Assembly: GCF_000284335.1 (NCBI RefSeq)
Contig: NC_017096.1
Coordinates: forward strand, 930,001 to 994,000
DNA from: Caldisericum exile AZM16c01
GTDB taxonomy: Bacteria > Caldisericota > Caldisericia > Caldisericales > Caldisericaceae
DNA length: 64,000 nucleotides
Direction: 5' to 3'
Shown here: positions 1 to 32,536 of the stretch, in pieces
How the letters are laid out: each line of letters begins with the position of its first letter
How positions within the stretch are numbered: position 1 is the stretch's first letter
The notes under the pieces: generated by a model
The model's input: only the letters and a program-made list of their open reading frames with translations
The model's database searches: none
Told to the model about the DNA's origin: nothing
Position numbers and translations under genes: made by a program

Positions 1-585
1 TCTTTCATCCAAAGGAACAATTGTAACTTTTTTATCTGTATCTATTTCTATAATATAAGGCTTTCGACTTTTTTCGGGAGTCTTTGCTTCAACTTCGATA
101 CCATTTATATTCAAATACTGTTGTTGAAATCCAAGTGCGACAACTCGCTTTCCTGCTGTAACTTTTCCCTTTATAACACCATACACATATACGTCAGATT
201 CTGACTCGACAACCCCATCCGGATTTACATTTCCAAGAATTACGATATCACCTTTATATCGCACGACTTGGCCGGAGCGCACCGTATGGTCAACAACAAA
301 AAACGATGGCTGTGATTGTTCGAAAGTCCCACCAAAAACCTTCTCCCCTTCGTTTATTCTAAACGAAACGTTTATTCCATTAAAAAGACTTTCCAATTTG
401 CTTATTTCTAATTCACTTAGCTCTCTTCCTTGAGTATCTATTGATAAAAAGCCCTTACTAAAGAAGTTTCTTTCGCTTTCTATAAGGTTCCTAATTCTAT
501 CAAGCACATCCTCAAATGGTGCTACCGGGTCAATCTTTAAAACAACATCGCCATTAATCCCTTTAAGAGTCACAATGTCCTTCAT
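1..585 (-). CDS. minC: Septum site-determining protein MinC (3' end cut off)
   Basis: Inhibitor of FtsZ assembly that, with MinD, blocks division at the cell poles. I translated the stretch directly: it opens with MKDIVTLKG at an ATG preceded by AGGAGG and stays open for 195 codons to the window edge. The N-terminal part resembles the MinC_N fold. From about residue 95 comes the typical MinC beta-helix, with VRSGQVVRYKGDIVILG, then NVNPDG and VYVYGVIKGKV. The C-terminus lies outside the window. It is the last visible gene of the mre/mrdA cluster, 24 nt after mrdA; minD would be the expected next gene. Motif match is strong. Confidence 0.88.
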   Translation of the reverse strand, partial: MKDIVTLKGINGDVVLKIDPVAPFEDVLDRIRNLIESERNFFSKGFLSIDTQGRELSELEISKLESLFNGINVSFRINEGEKVFGGTFEQSQPSFFVVDHTVRSGQVVRYKGDIVILGNVNPDGVVESESDVYVYGVIKGKVTAGKRVVALGFQQQYLNINGIEVEAKTPEKSRKPYIIEIDTDKKVTIVPLDER

Positions 586-21794: not shown

Positions 21795-22997
21795 TTAGTG
21801 AGTTGATAGTCTATACGTATCTGGATCCTCAAAAATAAGACCAAGAATAGCAATTAAAACCATAGGAACAATACAAAATACAAGTAAAGAAATCTCAAAA
21901 CCTTTCGTAAGAGATCCTAATAAAGGAAAAATTGTCCCACCAAGATTTGCAAATATAAGTATTATTGCACTGCCAATTCCTGCGTTTTCAATTCCAACAT
22001 TACTAAAAGCACTTGGAAGATGGACACCAAGCGGATATATAGGAAACAAAGCAATGCCCAAAATGAGAGACTCAAAAAGAAGCAAACTAAATACATTAAT
22101 AAACATGCTCAAAAAAATCATCAAGATAACAACAATGGGAAGTATAATGAAAAATATCTTAACTTTTCGTATCCTATGACTCAAATCAGGAATTGTCATT
22201 GCACCGAGCAGACACCCAATAAGGATAAAGGCATTTATAAAAGATGCTTTTGTCGGATCAAGACCCAAAAACTCAACATTTAACTTTGGATACCATCCTG
22301 CAAGCCACTTAAAAACACCGATATCAAAAAACGAAATTAAAGAAAGTACTACAAGCGATTTATTTGAAAACACAAGTTTAAAACCATCTTTTAATGGTAA
22401 TCTTTTTTTCAAGGGTACATTCCTAATTGAATCATCCCAATCCATAATAACAAGCACATATATAACTGAAGTCACAAGAGTAATAAGGGATGTAATAATT
22501 AGAAAAATCTTAATTCCTAACATACTTGCAAGGGGATATGAAACAAAGAACGCAACGATTTGGCCCAAAACGAGAAATGCCGTAAAGTATGCGGTAATTT
22601 TTGAAGCGCTTTCCTTTGAGAATAATCTGTAAGTTAAGGGTGACCATGAGGTAAATGCAAAAGTTGCACTTAGCGCAAACCCAAAATGTGCAAGAAGTAA
22701 GAGTGTAAAATTAAATGAAAATAGTGCTCTCAAGACAGTAAAAATGCCCAAAAGCAAAGAAGCAATTGTCGTAGTTCTTTTTGGACTCCTATCACTATAT
22801 GCACCCGCAAAGTAGGAGAAGAGAACAAGCAAAAACGGAACAGCAGAAATTAATAGTTCAGCAAAGACAGGCTTTACTCCCATCCCCTCTTCAACGAATG
22901 TCTTTAAAATTGGTCCCCACATGAACCAATTAAATCCAATAAGCATTGTAATTAGTCCAAAAAGTACAAAGATTAAAACATTCTTTCTTTTTTCCAC
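21795..22997 (-). CDS. MFS transporter
   Basis: Major facilitator superfamily permease of 400 residues with about 12 membrane segments. The loop 2-3 signature is visible as FAGAYSDRSPKRTTTIAS (residues about 63-80). A charged central loop follows segment 6 (DWDDSIRNVPLKKRLPLKD). Start is GTG at 22997 with GGAGG upstream. Substrate cannot be predicted. Monocistronic, with the terminator at 21765-21788 behind it. Confidence 0.9.
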   Translation of the reverse strand: MEKRKNVLIFVLFGLITMLIGFNWFMWGPILKTFVEEGMGVKPVFAELLISAVPFLLVLFSYFAGAYSDRSPKRTTTIASLLLGIFTVLRALFSFNFTLLLLAHFGFALSATFAFTSWSPLTYRLFSKESASKITAYFTAFLVLGQIVAFFVSYPLASMLGIKIFLIITSLITLVTSVIYVLVIMDWDDSIRNVPLKKRLPLKDGFKLVFSNKSLVVLSLISFFDIGVFKWLAGWYPKLNVEFLGLDPTKASFINAFILIGCLLGAMTIPDLSHRIRKVKIFFIILPIVVILMIFLSMFINVFSLLLFESLILGIALFPIYPLGVHLPSAFSNVGIENAGIGSAIILIFANLGGTIFPLLGSLTKGFEISLLVFCIVPMVLIAILGLIFEDPDTYRLSTH

Positions 22998-23044: not shown

Positions 23045-23072
23045 TTGACATTGTTTTCAAATTTGTTATACT
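23045..23072 (+). promoter_or_regulatory. Consensus promoter with no downstream gene on its strand
   Basis: TTGACA (23045-23050), 16-nt spacer, TATACT (23067-23072). The next plus-strand gene is more than 5 kb away and a terminator follows about 70 nt later. It therefore appears to drive a small RNA. Confidence 0.75.
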
Positions 23073-23078
23073 AACATC

Positions 23079-23176
23079 CAAGTAAGTACAGATATTCGCC
23101 ACCGAATACCTGATACCTACCTCCTTTCTTATTCATGCCAGGGAAGGTGCCCCCATCGCCTTCCCATTTTTTATTT
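23079..23176 (+). ncRNA. Candidate small RNA (about 98 nt)
   Basis: Expected to start near 23079 from the promoter at 23045-23072. It has a 6-bp hairpin TATTCG-CCAC-CGAATA (about 23093-23108), a single-stranded pyrimidine-rich linker ACCTACCTCCTTTCTT (about 23115-23130), and a terminator hairpin GGGAAGG/CCTTCCC with a U-tract. The linker contains a sequence complementary to GGAGG ribosome binding sites, so translational repression is plausible. Only the last few bases overlap, in antisense, the 3' end of the ABC transporter gene. No known RNA family recognised. Confidence 0.6.
23141..23176 (+). terminator. Terminator of the candidate sRNA
   Basis: GGGAAGG (23141-23147) / CCTTCCC (23159-23165), extendable by two pairs including a G-U, followed by ATTTTTTATTT. 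In the other direction no T-run follows, so it is specific to the plus strand. Confidence 0.8.
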
Positions 23177-24889
23177 GTATTGAGATTTGTAAAATTCATA
23201 GTAAAGACCTTTCTTTTCAAGTAGTTGCTCATGCGTGCCTTCTTCAACAATTCTTCCCTTATTTAATACATAAATTCTATTAACGTTCCTAATAGTCGAG
23301 AGTCTATGTGCAATGATAATAGAAGTTCTTCCTTTCATAAGGATTTTCGTTCCTTTTTCTATAAGTTCTTCTGTGCGTGAATCAATAGAAGATGTTGCCT
23401 CATCTAAAATTAATATTCTTGGATTATGAATTAGCGCTCTTGCAAAAGAGATAAGTTGACGCTCTCCCATCGAAATATTCTTTCCTTCGGTTGATAACTC
23501 CGTGTATAAACCTTTCGGTAATCTTTTAATATAGTCGTAAATTCCAAGCATTTTGCAGACATTTTCGACACTTTCTATCGAATAATCATCTCCAAGAGTT
23601 ATATTATCAAGGACAGTCCCTCTAAAAATAAACACATTCTGTAACACCATTCCAAGATACTTTCTAAAATGGCCTTTGCAAGCAAATTTGAGATCGTGGT
23701 CATCAATTGAAACAACACCACTAATTGGATCGTAAAATCCAAATATCAAATTCGCAATTGTTGTTTTCCCTGCACCTGTAAATCCAACTATCGCAACACT
23801 TTCCCCTTTCTCAACCTCGATATTTATTCCCTTCAACACATCATTTGCACTTTCATATGCAAAATAAACATTATTAAGAGTTACCTTCCCTTCTACTTCA
23901 AACCTTTCGCCGTCCTCAAGATTCTCCTCAAGTTCGTTTTCCTTTAAAAACTCATCAATTTTAACCATAGACGAAACCGCATTTTGTAAAATCGAGAATT
24001 TGTCCGAAAGGTCCCCTAAGGGTCCATAAAGGTATGAAAGGTAGCTTGAAAATGAAATTATTGTGCCTATTGTTCCGTTGCCTTTTATTGTAAAAATACC
24101 ACCTACAAATACAAGGAGGAAAATCGATAGGTACGATGAAATATTAACAGTTTGCCTTAATACAACATTTGTAACCTGAGATTTATAAAAATTGTCCCTA
24201 AAATCTTTTGCATATCCTCTAAATTTTTCAATTGCACTTTTCTCCATATTAAATATCTGGACTACATGAATGCCTGTAAGAACTTCTTGCATATGAATAT
24301 TCATTTTTGTTAAGGCATCTCGAACTTTCTCATAAATTTTTTCAACCAGATTGCCTAAATATAGAGAGAATATTACTGCAACAGGTAAAGGTGAAAGAAC
24401 AATAAGCCCAAGTTTTGGATTGATGTAGATAAGAAAACCTACGGCAAGCGCTATAAATAAAAGATCCGCAAACAACGAGACAAGCCCTGCATTGAGAAGA
24501 TCATTCATATTTTCAACATCGTTTGTAATGCGCGTAATTATTTTTCCTGAAGGTTCTCTTGAGAAGGATTCAATTTTAAACCTTGCCACTGTATAAAATA
24601 AATCGCGCCTTATATCTTGCATTATTCTCTGTCCTGCATAGTTTCCTACATAGATTTGAATTAACTTGAAAAGAATATTTGAAATAACTGCAACAAGGAC
24701 GAGTATAAGAAATTTTTTTACATTCCCAAAATCCTTTGTTGAGATAAGTGTATCAATAACATTCTTAATAAGATAAGGAATAATTGCAGAAGTAATTGAG
24801 GCAATAAGCATTCCAAAAAACGTTATGAGAAGCAAAATTTTGTATTTCAAAAAGTAGGCTATAAACCTTTTAATTGATTCTCTTCTCAT
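23171..24889 (-). CDS. ABC exporter half-transporter, subunit with catalytic Walker B
   Basis: A 572-residue membrane-fused ABC protein: six membrane segments (residues 1-315), then the NBD with GFTGAGKTTIANLIFG (Walker A), ISMGERQLISFARAL (degenerate signature, SMGE for SGGQ), LILDEATSSIDS (Walker B with catalytic Glu) and IIIAHRLSTI (H-loop His). It pairs with the preceding gene (4-nt overlap) as a heterodimer of the TM287/288 or BmrCD type. Probably exports drugs or lipids. Confidence 0.92.
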   Translation of the reverse strand: MRRESIKRFIAYFLKYKILLLITFFGMLIASITSAIIPYLIKNVIDTLISTKDFGNVKKFLILVLVAVISNILFKLIQIYVGNYAGQRIMQDIRRDLFYTVARFKIESFSREPSGKIITRITNDVENMNDLLNAGLVSLFADLLFIALAVGFLIYINPKLGLIVLSPLPVAVIFSLYLGNLVEKIYEKVRDALTKMNIHMQEVLTGIHVVQIFNMEKSAIEKFRGYAKDFRDNFYKSQVTNVVLRQTVNISSYLSIFLLVFVGGIFTIKGNGTIGTIISFSSYLSYLYGPLGDLSDKFSILQNAVSSMVKIDEFLKENELEENLEDGERFEVEGKVTLNNVYFAYESANDVLKGINIEVEKGESVAIVGFTGAGKTTIANLIFGFYDPISGVVSIDDHDLKFACKGHFRKYLGMVLQNVFIFRGTVLDNITLGDDYSIESVENVCKMLGIYDYIKRLPKGLYTELSTEGKNISMGERQLISFARALIHNPRILILDEATSSIDSRTEELIEKGTKILMKGRTSIIIAHRLSTIRNVNRIYVLNKGRIVEEGTHEQLLEKKGLYYEFYKSQYK

Positions 24890-28264: not shown

Positions 28265-28354
28265 TGGCGGAGAGGGTGGGATTTGAACCCACGAGAAGGT
28301 TGCCCTTCTACCTGATTTCGAGTCAGGCGCTTTCAACCGCTCAGCCACCTCTCC
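28265..28354 (-). tRNA. tRNA-Ser (anticodon CGA)
   Basis: Cloverleaf on the minus strand: acceptor GGAGAGG/CCTCTCC, D-arm GCTGAGCGGTTGAAAGC, anticodon stem CCTGA/TCAGG around CTCGAAA (anticodon CGA), a long variable arm (AAGGGCAACCTT core) typical of serine tRNAs, T-loop GTTCAAATC, discriminator G and an encoded CCA (28267-28265). Reads UCG. Confidence 0.97.
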
Positions 28355-31156: not shown

Positions 31157-32536
31157 ATGATGAAAAAAGTAGAAGAAGTTCTAAAGAAACTGGAAGAAGG
31201 AGGTTTTATGAGTCTATCCTTGAAAGAGAGAAAGGCTGTGATAAGAGAAGAGGCAGCGATATACAAGAAGTTAACGAAGAAAGAGAAAAGCAGGATGCTT
31301 GATGAATTTGTGAAACTCACAGGATACTCAAGATGTTATGCATCATATGTATTGAGAACATATGGAAGTAAAGTTGTTGTTGATTTAGAAAATGGAAAAA
31401 GAACTGTATTCATAGGCGATGATCTGTATAGTGGTAAAGGACTTAAGATAAGGAAGAGAAAAAGGGAAAGGGTATACGGTGAAGAAGTCTTCAATGCCCT
31501 TGTATATCTATGGAAGATGTCGGATTACCTATGTGGGAAAAGACTGAATGTGTATATGAAAGAAATAATACCTATCTTAGAGAACTTTAATGAGTTCCCT
31601 TACTCTAAAGAGATAAAAGAAAAGTTGCTTTCAATAAGTCCTGCTACAATAGATAGGTTGCTTAAGAAAGAAAAGGATAAGTTTAAGTTAAAGATGAAAG
31701 GAAAAACACTAACTAAACCTGGGACTCTATTAAAGCATAGCATTCCGATAAGGACATTCTCTGAATGGAATGAGAAAGAGCCAGGCTTTGTTGAAGTAGA
31801 CCTTGTTGGTCATGATGGAGGTAATCTAAGAGGAGAATTTCTCTATTCCCTTGATGTGACTGACATACATACTGGATAGACAGAAACAAAGGCAATAAAA
31901 AACAAAGCACAGATATGGACATTCAATGCATTAAAGGAGATTGGGAAGAGATTCCCTTTTTCAATAAAAGGTATTGATTCAGATAATGGAAGTGAATTCA
32001 TCAATGCACATCTATTGAATTATTGTGAAAAAGAGCATATCACATTTACAAGGGCAAGACCTTATAGAAAGAATGATAATTGCTTTGTGGAACAGAAGAA
32101 CTATTCTGTGGTAAGAAGGGCTGTAGGATACATAAGGTATGATACGGATGAGGAACTGAAGATAATGAATGAACTCTACAATACATTGAGGCTCTATACG
32201 AACTTTTTCTTACCTTCAATGAAACTAAAAGAGAAAACAAGAATTGGGAGTAAGGTATTAAAGAAGTACGACAAACCCAAGACACCCTATCAAAGGATTC
32301 TTGAATGTGAGTTAGTATCTGAAGAAATAAAGAAGAATCTCAGGAGAATGTATGAAACACTAAATCCTCTTTTACTTAAAAGAGACTTAGATAAAATCTC
32401 AAAAGAACTTTCAAAAGCATATGATAAAAAGATAAGGAAAATGGAAAGGAAAGAGAAAGAAGAGAGAAAATCATATACTGATTTTCCTTTGACTCAGAAT
32501 AATTTCATATATAATTTAGATGAGGCAACCAGATAA
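31157..32536 (+). pseudogene. DDE (rve-type) transposase interrupted by an amber codon
   Basis: About 459 codons in one frame with a single TAG at 31877-31879. Reading it as TGG (Trp) gives continuous protein: an N-terminal helix-turn-helix-like region (SRCYASYVLRTYG), catalytic core with PGFVEVDLVGHDGG (first Asp), GIDSDNGSEF (second Asp) and DNCFVEQKNYSVV (Glu). The stop falls between the first and second catalytic Asp, so the product is inactive unless read through. GGAGG precedes the ATGATG start. Family resembles IS481/ISNCY-like integrase-core transposases. Confidence 0.9.

Follow-up and report, generated by a model that had tools for sequence, protein, structure and literature searches.

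The genome of Caldisericum exile (G000) is a single contig of 1,558,103 bases, and the window considered here is the whole 64,000-nucleotide stretch of it that was analysed. Between two minus-strand ORFs of the window, a transporter gene that is MFS-like by eye (21795-22997) and an ABC exporter gene, also assigned by eye (23171-24889), lies a plus-strand unit at 23045-23175 that is divergent from the former, convergent with the latter, and confirmed as real. It opens with a sigma-70-type promoter (plus strand, 23045-23072; 11/12 consensus matches) whose -35 TTGACA at 23045-23050 and -10 TATACT at 23067-23072 are separated by a 16 bp spacer, just as an earlier note on this DNA had read it, and continues with a small RNA gene termed sRNA-A. 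The same note saw no gene on the promoter's strand and nothing like a small ORF; indeed no plus-strand ORF of at least 40 aa overlies the unit and both neighbours are on the minus strand, but a frame does open at an ATG in the linker of the RNA, with no Shine-Dalgarno (SD) sequence before it. In 10.5 kb scanned, the promoter ranks in the top two of 41 promoter-like sites; such sites are not enriched over shuffles (41 vs 39.2) and terminator-like sites are barely above them (7 vs 5.6). Because both occur near chance density in the region, promoter and terminator are each weak evidence alone, and the case rests on comparison.

The RNA, predicted to be ~96 nt from its expected start, placed from the -10 position, to the U-tract (plus strand, 23079-23175), is matched at 23079-23174 by R1, a covariance model built with the C. 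exile sequence included. Its fold is far more stable than that of shuffled sequences (-26.6 vs -12.7 kcal/mol; z -5.4; 0/200 shuffles as good). The 5' hairpin spans 23082-23120 of the plus strand with a core stem at 23089-23112; 97.2% of its cells pair and 4 of 9 counted pairs show two-sided changes, so that the hairpin previously noted is present, although its helix is longer than the 6 bp given. The linker GATACCTACCTCCTTTCTTATTCATGCCA (plus strand, 23112-23140) contains the CU-rich stretch CCTACCTCCTTTC at 23116-23128, and is open in the fold as had been claimed, but over a longer stretch, the unpaired seed at 23121-23140. Within it ACCTCCTTTCT (plus strand, 23119-23129) is identical to the 3' tail of the organism's own 16S rRNA, which reads TGGATCACCTCCTTTCTAAGG in L042. 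The intrinsic terminator (plus strand, 23141-23175) is likewise where the earlier reading put it, with the hairpin GGGAAGGTG...CGCCTTCCC at 23141-23165 followed by the U-tract ATTTTTTATT; 98.6% of its cells pair, one pair is changed on both sides, and the CCCC of its loop is invariant across 11 homologues.

An Rfam scan of the whole window gave tRNA-Ser only and no family for sRNA-A at gathering level; a search of the unit itself with E values to 5 gives two minus-strand matches only, far below gathering cut-offs. No match to the unit was found in the viral contigs searched. The tRNA-Ser (CGA), at window 28265-28354 on the minus strand, is the sole Rfam and ARAGORN match in the window. Elsewhere in the window, the first residues of a plus-strand ORF at 32165-32536 recur inside a transposase-like ORF (L311, 5958-7334), of which it is perhaps a truncated copy.

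Conservation of sRNA-A and a second RNA of similar layout

A gene like that of sRNA-A, with promoter, 5' hairpin, linker and terminator, is found in 11 of 18 Caldisericaceae genomes, and a covariance model match of comparable score in none of 36 other genomes of the phylum, 4 of which give weak matches. The covariance model yields 11 strong family matches (E 2.5e-18 or better), and a search with the linker pattern recovers the same 11/18 family genomes. At the DNA level, among 61 genomes including its own, 47 show some match at E up to 1, and the 11 strong matches (E 2e-20 or better) are all within the family. In the named genome collection the core linker is matched exactly on 8 contigs, all Caldisericum, Caldisericaceae or Caldiserica. 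Beyond the family, R1 gives weak matches in G052, G035, G051 (two) and G029, and within it a further weak one in G011; by eye none has the promoter plus linker of sRNA-A, and that in G035 resembles the beginning of a gene read on the reverse strand. The seven family genomes in which sRNA-A was not found comprise five that form one genus (g7), plus G003 and G013, which are 55% and 77% complete and where the contig bearing it may simply be missing.

The linker is the most conserved part of sRNA-A: ATACCTACCTCCTTTCTTATTCATGCC is identical in 10/11 genomes, over 8 genera, and G011, where the seed is also less open (mean unpaired 0.68), differs by one base, C to T. In a model-fitted alignment (A4) of 11 rows, 8 of them distinct, which leans towards structure because it was fitted to it, 97.9% of stem cells pair, two-sided changes affect five stem pairs and covariation scores 0.266, values each reached by 0/500 shuffles, and the count of further pair types in the stems is ordinary (247/500). 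RNAalifold on a different alignment, A3, leaves G007 broken at several pairs. Conservation in 11 genomes rules out a chance origin of the unit. The earlier note had proposed a candidate small RNA with an anti-SD linker and had agreed beforehand to give it up if hairpins and linker were not kept in relatives; they are kept, both hairpins covary, and the proposal is supported.

The promoter is retained with these elements, TTGAC-17/18-TATANT lying upstream of 11/11 homologues; upstream of the -35 no conservation is seen by eye. Genes beside sRNA-A vary between genomes. The end of an ABC exporter gene directly adjoins it in 7/11 homologous loci, is one gene off in G008 and G009, and is not seen in G005 and G012 (all by eye).

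A distinct RNA of similar layout, sRNA-B, has a promoter, two hairpins, the linker TTTCTTCCTCCTTTTTAA and a C-rich terminator, and occurs in 9/18 family genomes (loci L100-L108): 4/5 of g7, plus G005, G008, G009, G012 and G013. A weak R1 match in G013 is not sRNA-A and proved to be this RNA. The first hairpin of sRNA-B changes in sequence with its pairing kept (GGTCTT/AAGACC, GGACTT/AAGTCC, GCTTAT/ATAAGC). The pattern TTGAC-17..19-TATANT-25..55-CCTCCTT, which has 0 control matches, occurs at 30 places in the 18 genomes, namely 11 sRNA-A genes, 8 sRNA-B genes, 10 tRNA-Ala genes (by eye) and 1 other, in G003. Pairing of sRNA-B with leaders shows no excess in G008 (12 to 18/60 shuffles as good); in G010 0/60 shuffles are as good, an excess that is partly one of composition, since the all-gene mean is also reached by 0/60.

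Messenger leaders that pair with the linker

The linker was formerly suggested to pair with GGAGG sites carried by most genes with a visible SD. GGAGG was found before only 19 of 44 SD-bearing window genes by rough gene calls, and the linker, which can indeed pair with it, does not seem to behave as a general GGAGG binder: it pairs over ~20 nt with a few leaders, several of them of amino-acid catabolism genes. In the comparisons that follow, leaders are those of rough ORF picks of our own, and energies leave accessibility out. Averaged over all leaders, the linker pairs slightly better than shuffled linkers in three comparisons (27/100, 31/150 and 29/150 as good); in the second C. exile sample 67/100 are as good.

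The first C. exile sample consisted of the window plus 20 stretches (332 genes with SD), one of which, L190, was chosen because the aminotransferase gene is there. The best values are those of the aminotransferase (-38.6), of IorA, the indolepyruvate:ferredoxin oxidoreductase alpha subunit (-33.5), and of glutamate dehydrogenase (GDH; -32.8), against a mean of -15.5; IorA and GDH are both over their NCBIfam cut-offs, and the aminotransferase is class I/II by Pfam, with no NCBIfam model over cut-off among the best 25. A 22-nt linker match at 679996 of the genome, considered as a second sRNA copy and rejected, is the aminotransferase leader, which forms 22 consecutive pairs with the linker and has a TATAAT-like box directly before GGCATGAATAAGAAAGGAGG. 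The fourth-ranked "gene" (L176) looks spurious, and is kept in the ranks and not named as a target; the fifth, a GH57 protein gene, is not an amino-acid gene. Without L190 (322 genes), in controls that keep the anti-SD core and shuffle the 3' flank, the top 1, 2 and 3 are equalled by 18, 4 and 2 of 100 shuffles, the top 5 and top 10 by none, and the all-gene mean by 27.

A second sample of 300 genes, not inspected beforehand, is led by a SoxA-like FAD/2Fe-2S oxidoreductase gene (-38.3; leader TTTGGCATGAATTGAAAGGTGGTGGGTG), which is below the cut-off of the NCBIfam soxA model and adjoins ferredoxin-like and DAO-type oxidase ORFs, apparently as an operon (by eye). Here 0/100 shuffles reach the top 1 to top 10, an excess that rests on this one gene, since without its stretch 6 to 25/100 are as good. 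Ranks 2 and 3 are DNA ligase LigA (-32.5), with a near-match in G002, and an FtsZ-like ORF, neither of them an amino-acid gene.

Two patterns were searched over whole genomes. ATGAAT-N0..7-AAAGGAGG occurs at 27 places in the 18 genomes, of which 11 are sRNA-A, 5 are aminotransferase leaders (G000, G002, G008, G009, G013), and the other 11 include, by eye, those of a 2-oxoacid:acceptor oxidoreductase, an asparaginase-type enzyme and a peroxiredoxin, with several inside genes. GGCATRAN{0,12}RAARGRGG, designed with the aminotransferase, IorA, GDH and one asparaginase already identified, has five places in all of C. exile: sRNA-A itself and the leaders of IorA, threonine dehydrogenase, aminotransferase and GDH, three of these four having been known beforehand. 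The new one, threonine 3-dehydrogenase, recurs in G001, G002 and G004, and PEP carboxykinase (PEPCK) is a further new match in G008 and G013. Non-self places number 38, of which 30 are in 13 genomes and 8 in 4/5 g7 genomes; genes at pattern places were named by search in G000 and G008 and by eye elsewhere. By eye, 18 of the 30 directly precede a real start (IorA 2, threonine dehydrogenase 4, asparaginase type 2, GDH 2, aminotransferase 2, PEPCK 2, solute-binding protein 1, repeat secreted proteins 3), the remainder being inside genes or doubtful; none of the 8 in g7 lies before a recognisable amino-acid gene, and perhaps 1 of them before a real start, that of a RodA/FtsW-like ORF in G017.

In G007, three secreted-protein-like genes on three contigs (L201, L217, L267) have near-identical leaders and N-termini, and in C. 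exile at ~1360.1 kb (L006, 1510-1640) a leader and short gene start (AGAAAGGAGGTAGAAGATCATGAAGTGGGGAGC...) stand in tandem ~100 bases apart. In G003 a 2-oxoacid:acceptor oxidoreductase alpha gene (by eye; L168) has the leader ATGAATTTGAAAGGAGGC, and in C. exile near 1557966 (L170, L270) this leader is followed by a resolvase-like, IS607-like ORF (by eye); the C. exile 2-oxoacid:acceptor oxidoreductase gene is preceded by other DNA, as though an element had inserted where its ribosome-binding site was.

Amino-acid genes also rank high in two relatives that carry sRNA-A. A GDH-family gene, glycine-cleavage GcvT and an aminotransferase rank 1, 3 and 4 among 288 genes of G007, where 0/100 shuffles reach the top 3 to top 10; the short ORF at rank 2 looks spurious, and is kept in the ranks and not named as a target. 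Among 206 genes of G008 the aminotransferase, in a stretch (L258) chosen knowingly, and threonine 3-dehydrogenase rank 1 and 2, followed by an ORF without an assigned name; without L258 the excess is weak (27, 10, 7, 11 and 7 of 100 shuffles for the top 1, 2, 3, 5 and 10). Thus the amino-acid set beats flank-shuffled linkers in C. exile and G007, and weakly in G008. In G010, which is without sRNA-A (131 genes), the top 5 and top 10 are ordinary (31 and 44/100), and the best value, -29.2, matched by 2/60 and 6/100 shuffles, falls at a glycine-dehydrogenase-like ORF whose start may be an internal one called in error.

The comparison of aminotransferase leaders covered 16 genomes: 10 with sRNA-A, the five g7 genomes and G013. 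In 9 of the 10 sRNA-A genomes with an orthologue at most 12/300 shuffled linkers pair as well as the natural one, the exception being G004, where the leader is no better than shuffles (92/300). In all five g7 genomes, which are without sRNA-A, 175 to 294/300 do so; since g7 is one clade this is one evolutionary contrast and not five. G013, in which sRNA-A was not found, keeps the site (1/300), and G001 has sRNA-A and no aminotransferase orthologue in its 56% assembly. Asparaginase-type leaders score -29.0 in G002 and -30.1 in G003; in g7 all five genomes give weaker values, from -10.2 to -19.7. Candidate targets other than the aminotransferase are seen in fewer genomes. The IorA relative in G008 pairs weakly (-19.1).

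Probable function and comparison with known RNAs

These features suggest that sRNA-A probably acts in trans and blocks ribosome binding mainly on mRNAs of amino-acid-fermentation enzymes. Transcribed from its own promoter, the ~96 nt RNA would base-pair through its unpaired linker with ~20 nt of target leaders, in duplexes predicted to run through the SD sequence and to lie, in some targets, near the mRNA 5' end, and ribosomes would then be kept from binding. The main targets would be the aminotransferase, glutamate dehydrogenase, indolepyruvate:ferredoxin oxidoreductase, threonine dehydrogenase, the asparaginase-type enzyme and the amino-acid-oxidase-like operon. These enzymes are probably held down because the exposed strand matches their translation start sites, and blocked initiation is the likely effect because all nine duplexes drawn cover an SD-like stretch, by analogy with NmsRA and NfeR1, for which repression was measured. 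The cell would use such an RNA to hold down amino-acid breakdown under some condition. Pfam Hfq was found over cut-off in 0/18 family genomes, with one sub-threshold match in G011, by a search that as a control found Hfq in 5/14 known genomes, and sRNA-A would on this count probably act alone or with another chaperone.

The likeness of the linker to the 16S tail raises the possibility of a general anti-SD RNA in which ACCUCCUUUCU mimics that tail and titrates mRNAs or tail-binding factors without choice of target. The 11-nt identity and the ability of any GGAGG leader to pair speak for this; it is nevertheless unlikely, for averaged over all leaders the linker pairs as any such core would, while a few leaders stand out, and conservation extends into TTATTCATGCC, which is absent from the 16S tail. 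We give a similarly low probability to a trans-acting RNA that activates or stabilises its targets, or has other main targets. Some non-amino-acid leaders do pair well, and a TATAAT-like box just upstream in the aminotransferase and some other leaders (by eye) means that pairing would reach the 5' end; against activation, the SD-like stretch is covered in the nine duplexes, and pairing of this kind reduced translation in the cases of NmsRA and NfeR1.

A minus-strand element, be it a DNA site or a structured leader or attenuator lying between the transporter gene and the ABC exporter gene, is very improbable, even though the full reverse complement folds better in 10/11 genomes, A.C mismatches of the 5' stem turning into G.U pairs on that strand. 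The promoter and U-tract are on the plus strand, the terminator stem is more stable on the plus strand in 8/11, the leader complementarity belongs to the plus transcript, and the flanking genes change between genomes. Least credible of all is a short coding RNA or decayed pseudogene: the frame at the linker ATG opens in 11/11, but it lacks a stop inside the RNA as well as an SD, its residues vary along with the terminator sequence (G001, G004, G006, G007, G012), and the stems covary while the linker is fixed.

Regulation of amino-acid-fermentation mRNAs in trans, the preferred reading, may extend further. It is possible, at close to an even chance, that one sRNA serves as an Hfq-free, family-wide master regulator of amino-acid fermentation. 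Its fixed seed, unusually long at ~20 nt, would lie over the ribosome-binding site of its targets and in many cases over their 5' end too; the set of targets would change from species to species around this constant seed, and in one sister genus the second, distinct anti-SD RNA of similar layout is the only such RNA found. A near-fixed seed in 11 genomes together with several targets in one pathway offers a testable network in a thermophile lineage, and raises the questions of how an anti-SD duplex of such length can act in the heat when no Hfq is present, and by what steps genes enter or leave the target set. No account of regulatory RNA in Caldisericota was found among the titles and abstract openings of the open-access literature, a body of work outside which subscription journals mostly lie.

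sRNA-A has the attributes of the anti-SD sRNAs in its sequence: in 11 genomes an intergenic gene with its own promoter and intrinsic terminator, an unpaired conserved seed complementary to SD regions, and specific leaders kept in relatives, that of the aminotransferase in 9/10 genomes with sRNA-A and 0/5 without. GcvB of enterobacteria is a single sRNA over many amino-acid-related mRNAs, mainly of uptake, and works with Hfq and a GU-rich seed, whereas sRNA-A has a CU-rich seed, catabolic enzymes as its candidate targets and no Hfq over cut-off. The RsaE/RoxS sRNAs of Firmicutes have a C-rich motif; as far as their accessible descriptions go, sRNA-A differs in belonging to a different phylum and in having no Rfam match.

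According to the available portions of the published account, the sibling sRNAs NmsRA/NmsRB of Neisseria meningitidis pair with SD regions of TCA-enzyme mRNAs and lower translation (PMC5362039). Compared by description and not by sequence, they resemble sRNA-A in a UC-rich anti-SD stretch left unpaired between two stem-loops and in the metabolic nature of their mRNAs, and differ in having three stem-loops, a second anti-SD site in a loop, and TCA enzymes instead of amino-acid fermentation as targets (PMC5362039, same portions). NfeR1/alpha-r14 ("CCUCCUCCC") of rhizobia, as described in the accessible parts of PMC10746234 and PMC3927594, silences mRNA at the ribosome-binding site and shares with sRNA-A an ultraconserved unpaired anti-SD motif amid divergent stems. 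It has, in those parts, three hairpins, each with an unpaired CCUCCUCCC, whereas sRNA-A has two hairpins and one linker, CCUCCUUUCUUAUUCAUGCC; without CCUCCUCCC or an Rfam match at gathering level, sRNA-A does not belong to the alpha-r14/NfeR1 family. By analogy, sRNA-A may thus function like the anti-SD sRNAs NmsR and NfeR1, a likeness of action that does not imply kinship to either.
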